Below, piece after piece: positions 8,787 to 49,480 of a DNA stretch of 50,126 nucleotides. The stretch covers positions 1-50,126 of the forward strand of contig SHUI01000003.1 in the NCBI GenBank assembly GCA_009697455.1, in the 5' to 3' direction. The notes beneath the pieces were generated by a model. That model worked only from the letters and a program-made list of their open reading frames with translations, did not search any database and was not told where the DNA came from. Every line of letters begins with the position of its first letter. The stretch's first letter is position 1. The translations under genes and the position numbers were made by a program. The stretch comes from Bryobacterales bacterium (GTDB lineage Bacteria; Acidobacteriota; Terriglobia; Bryobacterales; Bryobacteraceae).

Positions 8787-11498
8787 ATGGCGAAGGCCTT
8801 TGCGTTTGGTCCACCCGATGACCCGCGGAAATACCGGCTTGTTGAGGGGGACGGGCTGTATCGCGACGGGCGCGATCTGAAGCTCCGACCAACCGCCCTG
8901 AAAGTTCTGGAGCGGTTGGTGCAATGCGCTCCGGGGAAGTTATCGAGCGCCGCGCTTGCGAATGCCATCAACGGCGAAACGTGGGTAGGCGACGCCGTGG
9001 GATTCACGTCGGAGTACATACGGCAGATCCGGGACGTTCTGGACCGGGCGGAACGGCAGAAAGCGATCAAGAACGACCGATCCATCGGCTACGCCTTCGC
9101 TTGGGATGTGCTGCAACCGGAGAAAGACCCCGACGCCTACCTTAAGGTTTTAGAAGAAAACACGCGAACGATCCGCATCACCGGCTTAACCACCAAACGC
9201 GCCGAGCCGTACTTCTTCGGAATCGACGAAATTTATATCCCGCTCAGCACGCTCGGGAGCCATGGGGCGGGAGCAGTGCGGGGCACCGAGCACGGGCGGC
9301 GCATCGCGCTGGAGCAGGCGGTTTCGCAGCGGAATGTAGTCATTATCGGCGATCCGGGCGCGGGAAAATCGACGTTCCTGCGGCGGGTGGCGTTCGAGTT
9401 GTGCCGCAGTCTTCGAAAATCGCGTCCGCCGGAGGCGGTTCCGTTTCTTGCGGCCGACGACCAGCGTTTCCCGATCCTAATCCGCGTCGCGGAGTTCGCC
9501 AAACTGCTGGCTGCGGTGCCATCCGCCGCAGACCGGCTTCCCAAGATGGAAGATTCGCCGGATTGGATCGCCTACTTCCTGGGAAAGCAGGGCGAGGAGT
9601 ATCGATGGGACGCGGACGAGGCTTTCTTCAAGAGCAAGCTCGATCACGAGCGTTGCCTGGTGATGATGGACGGCCTCGATGAAGCCCCGGAATCGACGTT
9701 ACGGGCGCGGATCGCACGGATATTCGAACGGGCCACTCAAACCTTCAAGAAGTGCGATTTCCTGGTGAGCACGCGCCCGCAAACGAACGTGGGGGAGGCC
9801 GTGCTCAAGGACTTTCATCAGGTCCGGATCATGGAGTTGGAGAGGCCTGAAATCAGAGCGTTCTTCGATCACTTCGCGCGGGCGTTGGCCCTGAACGATC
9901 TTGAAGCGAAGAAATTCAAAGAAGAGTTGGAGGACGCGCTCGACCGCCGGATGGAGATTCGAGAGATGGCCGGGAATGCCGTGATGCTGACGGCGCTCGC
10001 CGTCTTGCAGCATAACGATCAACGGCTGCCCGAGTACAGGGTGGACTTGTATGCATCGATCCTGGGCTGGCTGGCCGCGGCGCGGGAGAAAAAGAAGGGC
10101 CGCCCCCCGGCCAAAGAATGCCTGGAATACATGCGGAAGCTGGCACTCGCCATGCAGGACGCGCCTGGCAAGCGGATGGTACAGATCAACAAGCGGGTGG
10201 CCGCGGACCTTTTCGCGGGTGTGTTTGGTGGAACTTCGGACGAGGCGGAAGTTCAGATTGAAGGCGAGACGCAAGACAGCGGGATCATCGTTTCGGTGGG
10301 CGACGATCTGAAGTTCTGGCATTTGAGCTTCCAGGAGTATCTGGCGGCGCGGGAAATCGCGAGCTTTGGCGAGAAGAAGCAGATCGAAAGAGTCTTCGAG
10401 GACGGCAAGCTCTACCGAGGGGAATGGCGGGAAACGATGCGACTGCTGGGCGGAGTATTGCGCCAGCAGGGCGAGCCTAAGATCGAAGGGTTCTTTGAGG
10501 CGACATTGGAACGGCTCGGGAACCGCTCGAAGCTTGCGGATCAGGCGCGGTGCGTGGTGTTGCTGGGCGTGATGATGCGCGATCTGTCGCGTATGGGTTA
10601 TACACCGAAGACGCAGGACTATGAGCGGACGGTGAAGGCGGTGATGCGGATATTCGATGCCGAGGCGGAGGGGATCGAGATCGGGACGCGGATCGAAGCG
10701 GCCGACGCATTGGGGCAGGTGGGAGATCCGAGGCTGGAGGAAGACAACTGGGTAACGATACCCCCATGCACGTTCACCATGGGAGCGCAGAAGAAGAACA
10801 AGAACGGCAAGAACTACGATCCGGAAGCTTTCGACTTTGAGGAGCCTGTCCACGAGGTGAAACTGAGTGGATACCGGATCAGGCGGTTCCCGGTGACGGT
10901 GCAGGAGTACGAAGCCTTCATTGATGCGGGAGGTTACGCGACTCCGAAATATTGGGAGGCAGGATCTGTCGAATTCGCAAAACCCGAGAATTGGGAGCGG
11001 CAGAAACAGTATCCAAACCGTCCGGTAGTGGGGGTGAGTTGGTCCGAAGCGGCAGCGTATTGCCGCTGGGCCGGAGGGCGATTGCCAACGGGGGCGGAAT
11101 GGGAACGGGCGGCGCGAGGTCCGGAAGGCTGCCGGTATCCGTGGGGGAATGAACCGGCGCTCGATCCTTCGTATGCGAACTATGAAGGTGTAAGCCATCC
11201 GACGCCGGTGGGCTTGTATCCGAAGGGGAATACATCGGAAGGGCTGTGTGATATGTTGGGCAACGTTTGGGGATGGTGCGGAGACTGGTTTGGCCCGTAT
11301 GTGAAGGGAAGTCAGGAGAACCCACGAGGTCCGGAGGATGGGGAGACCAGAGTGTTGCGCGGGGGCTCCTGGGGCAACCCTCCGGAGTGGGTCCGCGTCT
11401 CGAACCGTAACGGGGGCGGGCCGGCGGCTCGGGATCACGCCGTGGGGTTTCGTTGTGCCGGGGAATTACGTTTAGCGTCTAGAGTTTTGAGTTTATGA
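8787..11498 (+). CDS. DGR target protein: winged-helix (OmpR/PhoB-like) - NACHT ATPase - FGE-sulfatase/C-type-lectin-fold variable domain
   Basis: N-terminal LKLRPTALKVLERLVQ...ALANAI...EYIRQIRDVLDR; Walker A VVIIGDPGAGKSTFLRR; Walker B CLVMMDGLDEAP; C-terminal TMGAQ...PVTVQEYEAF...VVGVSWSEAAAYCRWAGGRLPTGAEWERAARG...RVLRGGSW...VGFRCAG. Confidence 0.93.
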   Translation: MAKAFAFGPPDDPRKYRLVEGDGLYRDGRDLKLRPTALKVLERLVQCAPGKLSSAALANAINGETWVGDAVGFTSEYIRQIRDVLDRAERQKAIKNDRSIGYAFAWDVLQPEKDPDAYLKVLEENTRTIRITGLTTKRAEPYFFGIDEIYIPLSTLGSHGAGAVRGTEHGRRIALEQAVSQRNVVIIGDPGAGKSTFLRRVAFELCRSLRKSRPPEAVPFLAADDQRFPILIRVAEFAKLLAAVPSAADRLPKMEDSPDWIAYFLGKQGEEYRWDADEAFFKSKLDHERCLVMMDGLDEAPESTLRARIARIFERATQTFKKCDFLVSTRPQTNVGEAVLKDFHQVRIMELERPEIRAFFDHFARALALNDLEAKKFKEELEDALDRRMEIREMAGNAVMLTALAVLQHNDQRLPEYRVDLYASILGWLAAAREKKKGRPPAKECLEYMRKLALAMQDAPGKRMVQINKRVAADLFAGVFGGTSDEAEVQIEGETQDSGIIVSVGDDLKFWHLSFQEYLAAREIASFGEKKQIERVFEDGKLYRGEWRETMRLLGGVLRQQGEPKIEGFFEATLERLGNRSKLADQARCVVLLGVMMRDLSRMGYTPKTQDYERTVKAVMRIFDAEAEGIEIGTRIEAADALGQVGDPRLEEDNWVTIPPCTFTMGAQKKNKNGKNYDPEAFDFEEPVHEVKLSGYRIRRFPVTVQEYEAFIDAGGYATPKYWEAGSVEFAKPENWERQKQYPNRPVVGVSWSEAAAYCRWAGGRLPTGAEWERAARGPEGCRYPWGNEPALDPSYANYEGVSHPTPVGLYPKGNTSEGLCDMLGNVWGWCGDWFGPYVKGSQENPRGPEDGETRVLRGGSWGNPPEWVRVSNRNGGGPAARDHAVGFRCAGELRLASRVLSL
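11356..11462 (+). repeat. DGR variable repeat (VR) at 3' end of target gene
   Basis: 107-bp gapless alignment to TR at 12931-13037; 21 mismatches, 19 at TR adenines. Confidence 0.95.
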
Positions 11499-37405: not shown

Positions 37406-39007
37406 CTATACGTTCTTCACCGGACGTACCAAGCCACCCGGCGTTCCGTATTTGTGGCGGTGGGCGGTAAACTTCGCCTGACCATATTCGCCGAGTTCGA
37501 CCGTCCCGCGAATGATGCCGGCATCCACCGTGCCGGTGAAATCGTAGCCGAGCCGCGTCCCCTCAATCCGGTGCGAACTCCGGAAGCGGATCTCGTTACC
37601 CTCGACCGTGCCGCGAAGATCGCCCGCGAGGATATCGCCCTGGTGCGTGCCAACCAATTCGCCGCCCTTCTGCTCGAAGACCACGGCGTGCTGCGCGCTG
37701 CCGTAGATGTAGTCGAGTTGAACTTCCCATTGGCCGTCTACATCTGCCGGCTGTCCCGTGGGGCGCGCGGGCCGGTCCATCTTCGGCGGTTTCGCGAGCA
37801 GCGAGTTGATGCGGCTGGCGGCCAGTTTGTCGTCGCCGGGCATCATCATATAGGGCATGATCGTGATGGCACTCGCGGCGTTGTCCCGGCGTCCTCCGGA
37901 GGACCCGCCTACGATGATTCGCGGCGATCCTTCGAGAAGCAATTTCTCGATCTCCTGGCCGGTGATTCCGAGCTTGGCCGCGTCCCACTTGATCACCATG
38001 TGGGGAGCGCGGTTCGACAGCCCTCGCGGCTGAACCACCTGGGTCGTGACGCCATCCACCTTTGTGACGCTCGATGAAATGTGGCCGAGCCAGCCTTCCC
38101 ACTGTTTCCATTCCGCGTCGTGATCGCGTTTTGCCCACATCTCGACCGCCGTAAGCATGCCGACGATCTCTTCTTTCCCCACCTTCAGCGAGCGTCCGAA
38201 CGCATGGTGCGGAGCGCTGTTGAGCCACGCGGCTTGCAGAAGGTCCTTCGGGCCAAGGAGCATGCCCGCGCATTGGGGTCCGCGGATGCACTTGCCACCG
38301 CTGTAGGCGACCATGGTCGCGCCGCGCTTCAAATGGACGTTCGGAATCGTCAAATGCTCGGCTGCGGCGTCGACCAGGACGGGAATATTCTTCGCACGTG
38401 CGATCTTCGAGACGGCTTCCGTACCGAGAGGGCCGTCGTCGCCGTCGCCGGCGAGGATCATGATCATCGCGGTCTTCTCGCTGATCGCGGCTTCAAGCTG
38501 AGCGGGCGTATTGACGTCGATCATTTTCACGCCGAGCATGCGAATGGCGTGGTCGTAGACGTTGCGCGAGTACGAAGGGCAGATCACTTCGCTTTTGAGG
38601 CCCGTGAGATTGGGCAGGCGCTGCATTTTCTCGGGATCGGCGCCGGCGATGCAAGCGGCGGTGGCATGCGTGAGCGCAGCCGCGCAACCCGCCGTTACGA
38701 TACCCCACGGGGCCTGCGTGATCTCAGCCAGACGCTTGCTGACGCCCAACATCAGTTCGTCGATGTGGACGTAGTGGCGCGAAGCTTCTTCCATGGCGCG
38801 TTTCACTTCCGGCAGTGACTGAGAACCGCTGACGATCGTGAACGTGCCTTTGCAGTTGACGATCGGCTTGACGCCGATGGATTCGTAAATGCCGGGTCCG
38901 ACCTTCAGTTCGGCCGCTCCGCCTCCGGGCGCTGCGCTCGTCGCCAACGCCGCAAGCGCGCCACCGCGCTTGAAAAATTCTCTACGCTTAAAAGTTCCGG
39001 TCCGCAT
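37406..39007 (-). CDS. Tat-exported PLP-dependent aminotransferase class V/SelA-like protein
   Basis: FKRREFFKRGGALAALATS signal; YESIGVKPIVNCKGTFTIVSGSQSLPEVKRAMEEA; GIVTAGCAAALTHATAACIAG; YSGGKCIRGPQCAGMLLG. Confidence 0.85.
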   Translation of the reverse strand: MRTGTFKRREFFKRGGALAALATSAAPGGGAAELKVGPGIYESIGVKPIVNCKGTFTIVSGSQSLPEVKRAMEEASRHYVHIDELMLGVSKRLAEITQAPWGIVTAGCAAALTHATAACIAGADPEKMQRLPNLTGLKSEVICPSYSRNVYDHAIRMLGVKMIDVNTPAQLEAAISEKTAMIMILAGDGDDGPLGTEAVSKIARAKNIPVLVDAAAEHLTIPNVHLKRGATMVAYSGGKCIRGPQCAGMLLGPKDLLQAAWLNSAPHHAFGRSLKVGKEEIVGMLTAVEMWAKRDHDAEWKQWEGWLGHISSSVTKVDGVTTQVVQPRGLSNRAPHMVIKWDAAKLGITGQEIEKLLLEGSPRIIVGGSSGGRRDNAASAITIMPYMMMPGDDKLAASRINSLLAKPPKMDRPARPTGQPADVDGQWEVQLDYIYGSAQHAVVFEQKGGELVGTHQGDILAGDLRGTVEGNEIRFRSSHRIEGTRLGYDFTGTVDAGIIRGTVELGEYGQAKFTAHRHKYGTPGGLVRPVKNV

Positions 39008-42297: not shown

Positions 42298-43524
42298 TCA
42301 AGAGGTGTGCTGGTTCGATCCCAGGTTGGACGACTTGTTCGTCCACGTCACGGGATTGGGAAGCGAAAAGGACGCACGGAACGCGCCAATACCAGCGCTC
42401 CCGGCTCCGTTGTCGAGCGTATACGATCCGGCGGACAGCGCTTGCGGGATGTCTGCCGCGTAGTAACCCTCAGCCTTTCGATCGACCTGCTGGATCCCGC
42501 GCGGTCCCGACAATGCCAGAGTCCCCGGATCGAGAGGCGAGGCAATTTGGGGCACGGATCCTATCGCGTCGACGTTTCCTTCAAGGCAGGTTCCCGCGGG
42601 CGGTAACCCGAGGATGTTCAGCGACCGGAGCATAGAGGCGGTGTCGAGCCGGGCGAAGCTTGCGCGCACGGCAGCGGTTGCACTCGCGGCGTTGCTCTCA
42701 ACCTGGATGGCGGCCGTGCGCAGGGCAATGCCCGACGCCAGTTGATCGAGTTCCGCGCCCGTAAGTCCCGTGGCATCCCGGCAGCGCCCGTCCGAAGCGA
42801 TCGCCAACGTCCCAGTGTTGCTGACCGCGCCCTCGGCCGGAATGTTCACAACCTGGCGGTTCGGATCTCCTGCGACGACCACGAGCGGCGCATAGCAGCC
42901 TTCGATCCCTTGCGGCACTTCGAAAACGATCTGGTCGACACCCGGGCAACATCTGGAGCGGCCTTTGTAGCGCACTTTCGCGGCCTGGAACCCGATGCGC
43001 ACGGTTAGAGGGATGTTCAGATCACCCGGCAGCGGGCGCACCGATTCCGGCCCATCCACCGGACCGAGTCCGGTTCCCCAAAGCGTCACAACCTGCCCAG
43101 GCCGCGCCGGCGCGAGGATCGTGTTGACAGGCTGTCTGGCTTCCGTCTCGAAGTTTTGCACCACCGCTGGACCGGAGCCCGTCTGGCTGAGAGTGAAGAT
43201 GCCGAAGTTCCGCTGCACTACGTCGATTGAGGCCGGCGCGCTGGTCTGTCCGCGAGCCGTCACGGTAAGTTGCGCCCTTCCCAGCCGGGCGCACCGAGGT
43301 CCCGTCGAGTTCGAGCGGAAGAGGATAGGCGGCCTGCACGAGGCGCTCCGGCCCAGGTTCTTTCCGAAGACAACAACCAGGGATCCCCGCGCCAGTCCGG
43401 AATTGAGATGGCCCGGCGGAGTGTAGCTCGCGGCGCTGCGAACCCCGCCCTCGAATATTACCGGTTGCGCGACCGCGACGGAAGCGAGCGCGAGAACAGT
43501 AAAGAACGGAACGGCTCGTGTCAT
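42298..43524 (-). CDS. TIGR03437-like Solibacter-type secreted protein
   Basis: VRSAASYTPPGHLNSGLARGSLVVVFGKNLG; VTLWGTGLGPVDGPES; VRYKGRSRCCPGVDQIVFEVPQGIEGCYAPLVV. Confidence 0.85.
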   Translation of the reverse strand: MTRAVPFFTVLALASVAVAQPVIFEGGVRSAASYTPPGHLNSGLARGSLVVVFGKNLGRSASCRPPILFRSNSTGPRCARLGRAQLTVTARGQTSAPASIDVVQRNFGIFTLSQTGSGPAVVQNFETEARQPVNTILAPARPGQVVTLWGTGLGPVDGPESVRPLPGDLNIPLTVRIGFQAAKVRYKGRSRCCPGVDQIVFEVPQGIEGCYAPLVVVAGDPNRQVVNIPAEGAVSNTGTLAIASDGRCRDATGLTGAELDQLASGIALRTAAIQVESNAASATAAVRASFARLDTASMLRSLNILGLPPAGTCLEGNVDAIGSVPQIASPLDPGTLALSGPRGIQQVDRKAEGYYAADIPQALSAGSYTLDNGAGSAGIGAFRASFSLPNPVTWTNKSSNLGSNQHTS

Positions 43525-43582
43525 GACGGACGTACGCGTTGACCGCTCAATCGGATTATCGCGGGCGTTTTGGCGGTTCCGG

Positions 43583-44308
43583 TCATAGCCCAAACAGGTT
43601 TGTCTGAAGCTTGACGTACCCTTGCTCGCGCGCCCAGAGGTCGAGCGGGATCATCGCCAGTTCGTCCACCTGCGGGACCGCAAGCGCGTTCCGGGTGAGA
43701 TCGACGCACGTAAGGTAGATGCGGCATTTTTCGCAGGCCTCGACGCGCACCGCCTCGAACTGCTCCGCCGTGTAGATCGCCAATCCCTTCGCGCTCTGCT
43801 CGCCGCACGCAGGACACTCGATTCGCGGGAATTGCCACTCAAGCGAGCACAGCGAACAGAGCAGCGTGCGCTTTGCGCCGTGACCTTCCGGCCGCAGTAC
43901 GCCCACGCCCGGCCTCGAACCGCAGCGAGGGCACAGGCGTGCAGAGGAACCGGCAGGCGAAACCGCCTGCCCCACCCAGTCGAGCCGCTCCATGTAAGGT
44001 TGCAGCAGCGCATTCGCGAGGAACGTTTCCGCGGGCGTTCCGGCGGCGGTCAGGATACTGCGCCAGTGAGCGTTTCCGCGCGCGCGAACCTCGGCCACCG
44101 CGACTGCGAGCGGCGCCGGTCCGAAGCTTTCCACCACGGAAAGCAACTCCGGCATGCGATCGGCGAGATGGTCGAAATCCTCGCGAACGGTGCTCTGGAA
44201 TTGCGCGATTCGAATGTAGAATTCGAGAACCTCACGCGCGAAAGCGTGAACGGCCAGCAACTCCGACGCGCGCTCGATGCGCCGGCCGATGGGTACTAGC
44301 GCTTCCAC
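43583..44308 (-). CDS. fdhE: Formate dehydrogenase accessory protein FdhE
   Basis: Paired CxxC motifs LCPRCGSRPGVGVL, LLCSLCSLEW, CPACGEQSAKGLAIYTAEQFEAVRVEACEKCRIYL; follows FDH operon. Confidence 0.9.
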   Translation of the reverse strand: MEALVPIGRRIERASELLAVHAFAREVLEFYIRIAQFQSTVREDFDHLADRMPELLSVVESFGPAPLAVAVAEVRARGNAHWRSILTAAGTPAETFLANALLQPYMERLDWVGQAVSPAGSSARLCPRCGSRPGVGVLRPEGHGAKRTLLCSLCSLEWQFPRIECPACGEQSAKGLAIYTAEQFEAVRVEACEKCRIYLTCVDLTRNALAVPQVDELAMIPLDLWAREQGYVKLQTNLFGL

Positions 44309-44892
44309 AACGGATGGTGCGTCCGCGCCCACTCCTCGGACACCTCGCCTCGGACAATGGACGTGAATCCGCCGCGCACCACCGCCGTACCCATGTAGAC
44401 GTGAATGATGAAGCCGCCAATGGTCGCAAGCGCCGCGCTCACGTGCACCAGTACGGCCCAATGACGGAGCCACCGCAGGCTCCACGGAATCGACGACGTG
44501 AACCACATCGCTACACCCGAGATCAGCAGCAGGACGCCGCCCAGAAACATCAACCAGAACAGATACTTCTGCCCCGCGTTGTAGCGGCCGACAGGCGGCA
44601 GGTGTTTGTCTTCATTCCGAACGTAGTGTCCAATGGCCCGGCCCCATGCCCGGTCGCCCTCGGTGATGCGCATGTCCGAGGCCCACATCACGTACATCAG
44701 CACCGTCGCCGCAACAAACACAAGGCCCGCCCACGGATGCCACTCGCGCGATGTCGTCCCGCCGCCAAGCACCACGGCAAGCCAATAAAGCTTCGGCGTG
44801 TAGAACGCCAATCCCGTAAGGAGCAGGTACACATAAGCGAAAGCCGCCACCCAATGCACGATGCGTTCCTTGAACGTGTAGCGGAGAATCAT
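44296..44892 (-). CDS. Formate dehydrogenase cytochrome b556 (gamma) subunit
   Basis: YTFKERIVHWVAAFAYVYLLLTGLAFY; PVGRYNAGQKYLFWLMFLGGVLLLISGV. Confidence 0.93.
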   Translation of the reverse strand: MILRYTFKERIVHWVAAFAYVYLLLTGLAFYTPKLYWLAVVLGGGTTSREWHPWAGLVFVAATVLMYVMWASDMRITEGDRAWGRAIGHYVRNEDKHLPPVGRYNAGQKYLFWLMFLGGVLLLISGVAMWFTSSIPWSLRWLRHWAVLVHVSAALATIGGFIIHVYMGTAVVRGGFTSIVRGEVSEEWARTHHPLWKR

Positions 44893-45746
44893 GAGTCCTT
44901 TCCGTGAGCGTGCTTGGCACCGTATTTCAGATAGTGTATCGCCGTCGCCACAATGCCACCGATCATGGCAATATTCCCCAACCATTTCAGGGGAGCTTTC
45001 CAGAATGAAACCGCCAGCGGAATCGACGGATTCGAAGGCAGCCCGTAAAGTTCAGGCTGGTCCGCATGTGCCAGCACCGTCACTACGCTGGTGCCGCCCA
45101 CGCCCGGCGGATCGTACACACCCGCCTCTCGAAAGCCGCTCTCCCGCAACTGATCCACGCGCTTCGCCGCAACCTCAAGAAGCTGCTCTTTAGTCCCGAA
45201 CTGGAGGCAACCTGTGGGGCACGCTTTGATGCAGGCCGGTTCCAGGCCCACCGCGACGCGGTCCACGCACATCGTGCATTTGTAGACCGTCTTCGTTTTC
45301 GAACTCAGTTTCGGAATGTTGAAGGGACATCCCGCCATGCAGTATCCGCAGCCGATGCATTGATCCTGCTGAAAATCGACGATGCCGTTCACGTACTGCA
45401 CGATCGCGCCGGGCGCGGGACACGCCTTCAGGCACCCAGGATCGCCGCAATGCATGCACTGATCCTTGCGCATGAACCAGTGGAATCCGCCCGCATCCTC
45501 GAACTCGCTGAACCGTATCAGATTCCAGAAATTCGCCGTCGTGTCGGGCATCGTCTGATAGGTGCCGATCTGAACGGTGGTCTCGGGAGGCAGATCGTTC
45601 CATTGCTGGCAGGCCACTTCACAGGCCTTGCAGCCGATACATGTCGTGGTGTCGATGTACTTCGCGAGAACGGGCGTGTCACGAATTCCCGGCGGAGGCG
45701 CCGCGGACGCCGAAATGCGCTTCAACTCAAGCGTGTTGCCCGCCAT
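44889..45746 (-). CDS. Formate dehydrogenase iron-sulfur (beta) subunit
   Basis: Multiple 4Fe-4S motifs CIGCKACEVACQQWNDLP, CMHCGDPGCLKACP, CIGCGYCMAGCPFNIP; C-terminal TM helix. Confidence 0.96.
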   Translation of the reverse strand: MAGNTLELKRISASAAPPPGIRDTPVLAKYIDTTTCIGCKACEVACQQWNDLPPETTVQIGTYQTMPDTTANFWNLIRFSEFEDAGGFHWFMRKDQCMHCGDPGCLKACPAPGAIVQYVNGIVDFQQDQCIGCGYCMAGCPFNIPKLSSKTKTVYKCTMCVDRVAVGLEPACIKACPTGCLQFGTKEQLLEVAAKRVDQLRESGFREAGVYDPPGVGGTSVVTVLAHADQPELYGLPSNPSIPLAVSFWKAPLKWLGNIAMIGGIVATAIHYLKYGAKHAHGKDS

Positions 45747-48700
45747 TACGCTTTCTCCAACTTCACCAGGAAACCCTTGTATTCGGGCGCGAACGAGTTC
45801 GGGTCGACGATCGTCGGCGTTACCAGATTCGCCAGCGATCCTTGCTGCTTCCCTTTTCCCAGAAAGCCCCAGTGAATCGGGAACCCGATCTGATACACTT
45901 TCTTCCCACCCACCGTCATCGGTTTGATGCGGCGCGTCACCATCGCCTTTCCCTCAATCGATCCCCGCGCCGACGTCACCTTGACCTTCCCGCCGTTCGC
46001 GATACCCTTCTCTTTCGCCAGTTCCTCCGGAATCTCGACGAAGAACTCAGGCTGCAACTGCATGTTGTACGGATTGTTCTTCGTCCAATAATGAAAGTGC
46101 TCCGTCAGCCGGTAGGTCGTGCAGACAATCGGATATTCCGCGGCTTCGCCGAGCTTGTCGAATTCCGTGGTGAACGGCTTCACGGCGGGGTTCGAACTCT
46201 GCGAAGGATGCAGCGGATTCGGTATGGGCGCTTCCACCGGCTCGTAGTGTTCGGAGAACGGGCCTTCGGCGAATTGCCCCGGCACGAATAGCCGCGCCAC
46301 GCCCTCGGGCAGCATGATGAACGCGCCCATCCCGGCGTCATGGGTACCGGCGGGCGTGTTTGCGGGCGCGCTGTCGGGCTTGAAGTCCGGAACGTCGCCC
46401 ACCCACTTCTCGCCGTTCCAGCTCAGCACCGGGCGCGATGCGTCCCACGGCTTCCCCGCGCCATCCGCCGAGCAGCGGTTGTACATAATGCGCCGGTTCG
46501 CCGGCCAGTTGAAAGACCAGTTCGGATGCGCGCCAAGGCCAGAAGGGTCCGCGGTGTTCCGCCGCTGCGTCAGATTCCCAGCCTCGGGATAGCACCCGAT
46601 GTAAAGCCAGTTGCCGCAGAGCGTAGAGCCGTCGGCGCGTGTGTCGAGGAACTTCCCAAGTTGGGCGCCCGCTTTCAGGACCACGGTCTTCGGGTCCTTT
46701 TCATCCTTGATATCCTGGATCGCCCAGCCGTTGATCTCCTTCAGAACCTCGTCCATCGAAGGCTTCGAAGGATTGCTGTACCACCAGTTCAAGTTGGTGA
46801 CGGACGCAGCTTGCCTGCCGCCTTCCGCCGCGTAAAGTTCGCGCACGCGAAGGAAAATGCGCGCGGTGATCTCCTGATCCGCCAGCGCTTCTCCGGGCGG
46901 ATCTATCGCCTTCCACTTCCACTGAATCCATCGCGCGGAATTCGTGAACGTCCCGTCCTTCTCGGCGAAGTTCGCCGCGGGTAACAGGAAGACTTCCGTC
47001 TGGACGTCCGCCGGCTTCTTGCCCACCAGTTCAAGAATGTTGGGCTTCCAGAAAGCGGCGGTTTCCTGTTCAAAATTCTCCGCCACCACCAGCCACTTCA
47101 GCTTCGACAAGCCGCTGAGAACCTTGCGCGAGTTCGGACCGTTCGACACCGGATTCATGCCATAGCTGATCAGCCCTTCCATGCGGCCCTGGAACATGTG
47201 GTCGAAGATGTAAGCCCAACTCCAGTTCTCGTCGACACCAGGCGCGGACTCCGGCAGCTTGGGATGAAGATGATAAGCGAAGTCGTTCTCTCTCGTCGCG
47301 GCCTTGCCGTAGAAGGCCTTCAATTGGCTCACCACGAAGCGGTCCGTATTCGAGTAGAAGTTCATCGCATTCGGCCGCAGCGGTTTGGGAGTTACCGCGT
47401 CGATAAACGTCTTGAGCGACTGATGGCCGGCCTTCTGGATCGCGACGTAGCCCGGCAGGTTGTGATATCCCATACCGCAATCCGTGCCGCCCTGAATATT
47501 CGCGTGCCCGCGCAGCGCGTTCAATCCGCCGCCCGCGATGCCCATATTTCCCAGCAATAACTGCAGCATCGCCGCCGTGTGAATCAGTTGCACGGAGGAG
47601 CTGTGGTGCGTCCATCCGAGCGCGTAGAGAATGGTTCCGGCCTTGTCCGGTTTGAAGGTGGACGTGATCAGTTCGGCAGCGCGGACAAACTCCTCGGGCT
47701 TGCAGCCGCAAATCCGCGAGACCATTTCCGGCGTGTAGCGCGCGTAGTGTTTCTTCATGAGCTGAAACACCGACCGCGGATGCTCCATTGTCGCGTCGAT
47801 CTTCGCGAAGCCTTGCGCGTCGAGCTCGTAACTCCACGACGATTTGTCGGCGTACGCTTTCTTCGCCGTGTCCCAACCGGAGAACAGTCCCGCGGCTTCG
47901 TCGAACGCGTAGCTTTCCGTGACAAGGAACGTCGCGTTGGTGAAGAGGCGCACGTACTCGGCGTGATACCGGTTCTGGGTGAGCGCGTAGTGAATGAGGC
48001 CGCCGAGAAACGCGATATCGGTGCCGACGCGAATCTGGGTGAATGAATCGGAGACGGCGGAGGTGCGGTTATAGCGCGGGTCCACCGAGATGAGCTTCGC
48101 GTTGCGGTTCCGCTTGGCGTCCATGACGAAACGGAAACCGACCGGATGATTCTCCGCCGGATTCCCGCCCATGGCGAGGATGACATCGGCATTCGCAATG
48201 TCGGTCCAACCATTGGTCATGGCCCCCCGGCCGAAGGTGGCGGCCAAACTGGCCACCGTGGGTCCGTGTCAAATCCTGGCCTGTTGTTCGAGTGGTACGA
48301 CGCCGAGCCCCGCGCGGAAGGCTTTCACGAGCAGGTAATTGTTCTCGTTCGAATCGGTGCAGCCGCCCACGACGCCCATGGCCGTGAGCGCGTTCACGGT
48401 CCGGCCGAGCGCGTCTTTCTCGACGAGATGTTCGTCGCGCGTTTTCTTGATGAGGCGCGCGATGCGGTCGATGGCCCAGTCCCACGATTTGTCTTCCCAG
48501 TGATCGGACCCCGGCGCGCGGTAGCGGACCTTGGTGAGGCGCAGGTCGTTGACGATGTCCTGTTTGAGCGTGATGCCTTTCGGACAGAGCGAACCGCGGT
48601 TGATGGGGTGATCGGGATCGCCTTCGACGTGCACGACGGATGGCTTGACGTTGCGCGACGAATCGCCGAGGGTGTGGATGATGACGCCGCAGCTTACCGA

Positions 48701-48877
48701 GCAATAGGGGCAGGTGGAACGGTTCTCCGTGGTGCGCGCTATTTTCAACTGGCGCGTTTGGGCGTAGGCGGGTGCGAGGTCGAAGCCGAGCACGGCGGCG
48801 GCCGCGCCGGCGGACGTTGCGGCTTTCAGGAACGTTCGGCGTGTCGGCGTCATGGCGAGTGCCTCATTGTTTGACAT
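45746..48877 (-). CDS. Formate dehydrogenase alpha subunit (FdnG/FdoG-type), selenocysteine-containing; UGA at 48269-48271 read as Sec
   Basis: Tat signal RRTFLKAATSAG; CPYCSVSCGVIIH 4Fe-4S; ...PLEQQARI-(TGA)-HGPTVASLAATFGRGAMTNGWTDIANADVILAMGGNPAENHPVGFR in one continuous frame. Confidence 0.94.
48236..48268 (-). promoter_or_regulatory. Candidate bacterial SECIS stem-loop downstream of Sec UGA
   Basis: cacggacccac then ggtggc-cagtttggcc-gccacc on the minus strand, 11 nt after UGA. Confidence 0.6.
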
Positions 48878-48929
48878 GATGGCGCACGGGGCGGGCTGGG
48901 CGCAAGTCGGAAGTGTGGGCGCGGGGGCC

Positions 48930-49480
48930 ACGCTTCGCCCCGTTGGCAGTCAAAACCGACTGCCCCGCCACCTGTCCGGGCTTTAAGCTATGGTTTATCA
49001 AGTACTTGAATAGGGGGTGACGCAGAGAATTTATTTTCGTTTTTTTCGCGGCATCCGCGGCGGTTGACTCGCTCCCCCGGTTCGGATTATACACGTCCGG
49101 GTTCGTCGGGCCGGCTGGAATTCTTCCGAAAGCTTGGTATCCCATGTGGGAAATCGTTCAAAGCCTGTGACTGGGGACGGCAGCCGCCCTGCCCGCGCGA
49201 AGCGGAACTGGCCGCGCCTCGCGCGGTAGTAGTCGAAACCGACTGCCTGCCGCCCATCCGGACTTTAAGCTGTGTTTTGTCAAGCACTTGAATCGGGGGT
49301 GACGCAGAGAATTTTTCCCCGTTTTTCGCGGCGTCCGCGACGGTTCATTCGCTCCCTGCTCGGATTATACCCGTCCGGGTTCTTCAAGCTGGCTGGGATT
49401 CTCCCGAGGGCTTCGGGATCAACGTCGAAAAATAGTTCAAGCACCGTGACTCGGGGACGACAGCCGTCGCGAGCGTTCTC
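48930..49480 (+). repeat. Two tandem copies (about 280-bp spacing) of the GGGTGACGCAGA-core repeat
   Basis: gtttatcaagtacttgaatagggggtgacgcagagaattta... and gttttgtcaagcacttgaatcgggggtgacgcagagaattttt..., with matching flanks including cggattatac(a/c)cgtccgggttc. Confidence 0.88.

Follow-up and report, generated by a model that had tools for sequence, protein, structure and literature searches.

Two open reading frames (ORFs) on the minus strand of the 50,126-nt stretch of DNA analyzed here (termed the window), 48269..48931 (220 aa) and 45746..48256 (836 aa), lie in one frame. With TGA read as selenocysteine (Sec, U), they become a single frame of 1043 residues that opens at ATG 48877, closes at TAA 45746 and holds just one TGA in between, in the context EQQARI-U-HGPTVASLAATFGRGAMTNGW and no further stop or frameshift across the 1043 codons. 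The original prediction had held that the two ORFs are one gene, and this reading stands, both ORFs having been recovered in place. A genome search with the protein returned an open frame of 1067 aa at this gene, fdnG, with '1 TGA' inside; ATG 48853 is an alternative start. No sigma-70-like promoter was found upstream of fdnG. The intergenic region on that side carries a ~170-nt repeat in two copies ~280 nt apart (window positions 48940-49420), for which there was no Rfam match; dispersed relatives of the repeat occur elsewhere in the genome, on contigs C29, C221 and C85 and as shorter pieces, at 69-90% identity.

Table 1. Features of the formate dehydrogenase locus, with positions in the window.
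Feature	Coordinates	Strand	Evidence and remarks
fdnG, formate dehydrogenase-N-type alpha subunit	45746..48877	-	1043 aa; Sec is residue 203
In-frame TGA, read as selenocysteine	48269..48271	-	Aligns with the Sec of 1kqf; TGA in 79/79 readable relatives
Bacterial SECIS, Rfam SECIS_3 (RF01989)	48216..48274	-	63.2 bits, E=1.7e-12, full-length 1-59
fdnH, iron-sulfur beta subunit with C-terminal transmembrane helix	44889..45746	-	TIGR01582, 396.6 bits (cut-off 334.7); PF13247, PF09163
fdnI, cytochrome b556 gamma subunit	44296..44985 (listed ORF)	-	TIGR01583, 175.3 bits (cut-off 115.85)
fdhE-like accessory protein	43583..44506 (listed ORF, from GTG 44506)	-	PF24859 and PF24860 (FdhE_central, FdhE_C), over cut-offs

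The joined FdnG protein scored 1367.4 bits against the model for the alpha subunit of formate dehydrogenase-N (FDH-N), TIGR01553, for which the curated cut-off is 814.2. It contains the Pfam domains Molybdop_Fe4S4, Molybdopterin and Molydop_binding and a [4Fe-4S] motif, CPYCSVSC...LCPKG. Near its N terminus lies the twin-arginine motif TPTRRTFLK; the Pfam TAT_signal match there (19.6 bits) was below the cut-off of 22.7. Escherichia coli FdnG (PDB 1kqf_A) aligned to residues 12-1043 with 1083 bits, and in this alignment its Sec (X) faces the TGA-encoded residue.

Scanning genome contigs with the protein gave 80 best-matching loci, and the site was readable in 79 of them. The Sec codon was TGA in all 79, spanning several phyla, and a cysteine codon in none, a count that covers the best-matching loci and does not represent distant Cys-bearing homologs. 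The same-genus genomes have the same operon with TGA at the same codon, and on the Candidatus Sulfopaludibacter contig CAMDED010000056.1 (L021) the protein is 94% identical, with the same TGA, a near-identical SECIS and no notable difference. The earlier proposal that this TGA is the catalytic Sec of an FDH-N/O-type enzyme is borne out by the alignment with 1kqf and by the readable relatives, and together these results support the assignment of fdnG as a putative selenocysteine FDH-N alpha subunit with TGA at the catalytic position.

Downstream of fdnG, on the same strand and with frames that touch or overlap, follow fdnH, fdnI and the fdhE-like gene, the start of fdnH overlapping the stop of fdnG by one base. 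PDB 1kqf_C matched FdnI over residues 29-229 (E=1.5e-30), and the true start of fdnI is probably near ATG 44892. The fdhE-like protein scored 74 bits against TIGR01562, under the cut-off, and its translation probably starts near 44299, giving ~238 aa. A homolog of fdhE was found downstream of fdnG in six of the seven distinct related loci tried, with L021 and L142, which look like the same contig, counted once. The operon of the same-genus genome G001 aligned with the one described here over 5.4 kb at 84% DNA identity.

The RNA element expected just 3' of the TGA was also identified. The match to Rfam SECIS_3 covers the full length of the model and shares the GU of the hairpin loop, but it scored only 0.2 bits over the cut-off of 63; the homologous stretch of G001 reached 67.3 bits. 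The apical hairpin (48257-48239) pairs as GGUGGCCA-GUU-UGGCCGCC, with the loop GUU, and begins 11 nt past the TGA. The original prediction had placed a stem-loop at this distance and was right as to position; for the 3' arm it had given GCCACC, which lies three bases further on, and GCCGCC is favored instead. Folding energy of the stretch was ordinary relative to shuffles (z = 0.11) and is uninformative alone.

More was learned from homologous sites, of which one per locus was kept, giving 54 distinct sites. Five core stem pairs were formed in 268 of 270 cells, whereas 2,000 column shuffles averaged 236 paired cells and never exceeded 246; kinship is uncorrected in this comparison, which thus serves as support and not as a probability. 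One core pair shows exchanges between C-G and A-U, and another has four pair types. The fdnG element itself has a U-G wobble at a position left unpaired in other relatives, in which the U faces C or U. The loop is GUC or GUU at all 54 sites, with GU invariant, and the same loop codon is carried by the ~8 loci that were left out of the covariation analysis because a chance pattern match had overwritten the site. All 42 distinct rows with serine at the loop codon use AGT, a codon that accounts for only 4 of the 58 serines in the GC-rich fdnG. The Rfam match, the covariation and the conserved TGA support the view that the predicted hairpin is more than a chance fold.

The window corresponds to contig C119 in a bin of 4.49 Mb (G000; 320 contigs, 74% complete). 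Its best named relatives are Acidobacteriota metagenome-assembled genomes, the nearest being a Candidatus Sulfopaludibacter contig (94% identity), and the host is an uncultured acidobacterium near Candidatus Sulfopaludibacter. The original prediction expected SelA, SelB, SelC and SelD in this organism; selC and selD were found, selB was found as a C-terminal piece, and selA was not found in the 74%-complete bin. The two genes whose absence was to speak against Sec decoding, selB and selC, are represented in the same bin, selB by a fragment. A tRNA-Sec with anticodon TCA (70 bits) lies on contig C34; four other tRNA-Sec-like matches in the bin were assigned by ARAGORN to Ser, Ser, Gly and Leu tRNAs and rejected. 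The selD gene (C86:3323-4246, L018) scored 372-378 bits against a cut-off of 125 and has an in-frame TGA near its N terminus, in HVKAAGUASK, at the position usually occupied by Sec or Cys in SelD proteins; this SelD is probably itself a selenoprotein. The SelB piece comprises the C-terminal 298 aa, stands at the very start of C148 where it is cut by the contig end, and is 82.6% identical to SelB of G001; the N-terminal part was absent from the 74%-complete bin. A SelB-like match on C32 was rejected as SelB, being a 400-aa frame that is most likely EF-Tu.

Of the 41 genomes searched, 37 had a selA match over the cut-off, among them G001 and G002, the two other genomes of the genus. SelA-like matches in the bin were weak (19-41 bits), covered only the middle of the model, within longer frames, and were rejected; one of these matches falls inside the window (38123-38491), in a frame that Pfam identifies as a class-V aminotransferase. 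The selA gene of G001 is a neighbor of efp. A selA hidden in a contig gap beside efp was rejected for the bin, in which the efp locus (C22) runs on into other genes, and a selA adjoining selB upstream of C148 was unsupported, with G001 having selA and selB on different contigs. The G002 selA region showed no synteny with the efp locus, so the place of selA varies within the genus. The organism presumably carries a selA of its own.

A second formate dehydrogenase-like gene occurs in the bin (C303:771-2600, L141), with an in-frame TGA in NRTUHAPSVAGLATVFGMGG. It also has an in-frame non-TGA stop and a doubtful N terminus upstream.

Taken together, the locus almost certainly encodes an ordinary membrane-bound formate dehydrogenase of the FDH-N/FDH-O type (FdnGHI plus FdhE), containing selenocysteine and predicted to be exported by Tat, in an uncultured acidobacterium. 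The steps of its predicted action are established knowledge of the FDH-N family. On the mRNA, SelB, with GTP and Sec-tRNA, would bind the SECIS hairpin that closely follows the UGA and decode this codon as selenocysteine, which would then ligate the Mo or W of the bis-molybdopterin guanine dinucleotide (bis-MGD) cofactor. By analogy, FdnGH would be exported by Tat and formate oxidized on the outer side of the membrane, with electrons passing through the iron-sulfur clusters of FdnH to the FdnI hemes and on to quinone. The system resembles E. coli FDH-N (FdnGHI, PDB 1KQF/1KQG) in its three subunits, Sec position, [4Fe-4S] motif, putative Tat-type N terminus, SECIS right after the UGA and full-length alignment. 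It differs in belonging to another phylum, in having fdhE within the operon and in that fdhD was undetected in the bin and in two same-genus genomes. Against this interpretation stand the genes missing from the bin, namely selA, the N-terminal part of selB and fdhD, as well as the narrow margin of the Rfam match. Metagenome bins can mix contigs; the same-genus genomes nonetheless carry the same operon.

One alternative is that the TGA is a real stop, or came about by nonsense mutation or by an error of sequencing, the gene being either a pseudogene or one with cysteine (TGC/TGT) as its normal residue at this position. Mechanical gene calling does split the frame, and the bin is a fragmented draft, but the same codon is TGA in every readable best-matching relative, across several phyla, and in the same-genus genomes, the SECIS covaries, and the remaining codons run without another stop or frameshift. 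The conserved TGA and the SECIS already refute a stop or an error, which we regard as extremely improbable. The possibility that TGA is recoded genome-wide (e.g., as Trp), and that the codon is not selenocysteine, is also already refuted and retains a negligible chance: a single TGA occurs in the 1043-codon frame, in which Trp is TGG, a tRNA-Sec with anticodon TCA is present, and the site aligns with the Sec of 1kqf.

It is also very unlikely that the gene is real and that Sec decoding has been lost along with selA, leaving fdnG as a dead remnant. The failure to find selA in the bin, including at the efp locus that G001 uses, is what such a loss would predict; yet the bin is 74% complete, selA is present in the two other genomes of the genus as well as in most genomes searched, and its location varies within the genus. 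Moreover, selD and the second formate dehydrogenase-like gene of the bin keep their in-frame TGAs, and fdnG is otherwise intact.

FdhD sulfurates the formate dehydrogenase cofactor in E. coli and is needed there to activate the enzyme. No fdhD was detected in the bin. Sixteen of the 41 genomes had a long match to the Sec-containing alpha subunit (G000-G003, G005, G006, G008, G010, G011, G015, G016, G024, G025, G027, G036 and G038), and PF02634 detected no FdhD in 14 of these (all but G006 and G010), nor in 9 of the 11 that are >90% complete, absences that rest on a model which a diverged FdhD may escape. PF02634 works on such data, as 5 of the 41 genomes and 8 control genomes gave an FdhD match. 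Tentatively, the Sec-containing formate dehydrogenases of this acidobacterial lineage might be matured without FdhD, with another route sulfurating the Mo/W-bis-MGD cofactor, a possibility that we consider rather doubtful. A review (PMC10609526) had already remarked that some organisms expressing formate dehydrogenase have no fdhD. The lack of a detected FdhD in most of the relatives poses a small, testable question, i.e., the source of the sulfido ligand in such enzymes.

Formate dehydrogenase alpha subunits are commonplace among selenoproteins. A 2006 survey recorded FdhA in 67 of the 75 organisms that decode Sec; the FdhA type is one of the two most widespread bacterial selenoproteins, and each selenoprotein-containing organism has at least one of the two (PMC1794560). 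Because FdhA is so widespread among Sec-decoding organisms, the case of fdnG is an ordinary one: it is a classic bacterial selenoprotein gene, in an arrangement well known from other bacteria. It adds a further confirmed example of a selenoprotein gene split by automatic callers, which is useful for annotating this genome.

Two other genes of the window were recorded. A 431-aa frame (42298-43593) matched the Solibacter C-terminal domain TIGR03437 and had no Pfam match. A 903-aa protein (8787-11498) has an unusual combination of a sulfatase-modifying-factor (FGE) domain with a NACHT/AAA ATPase, and also weakly matches a DNA-binding domain of the response-regulator type.
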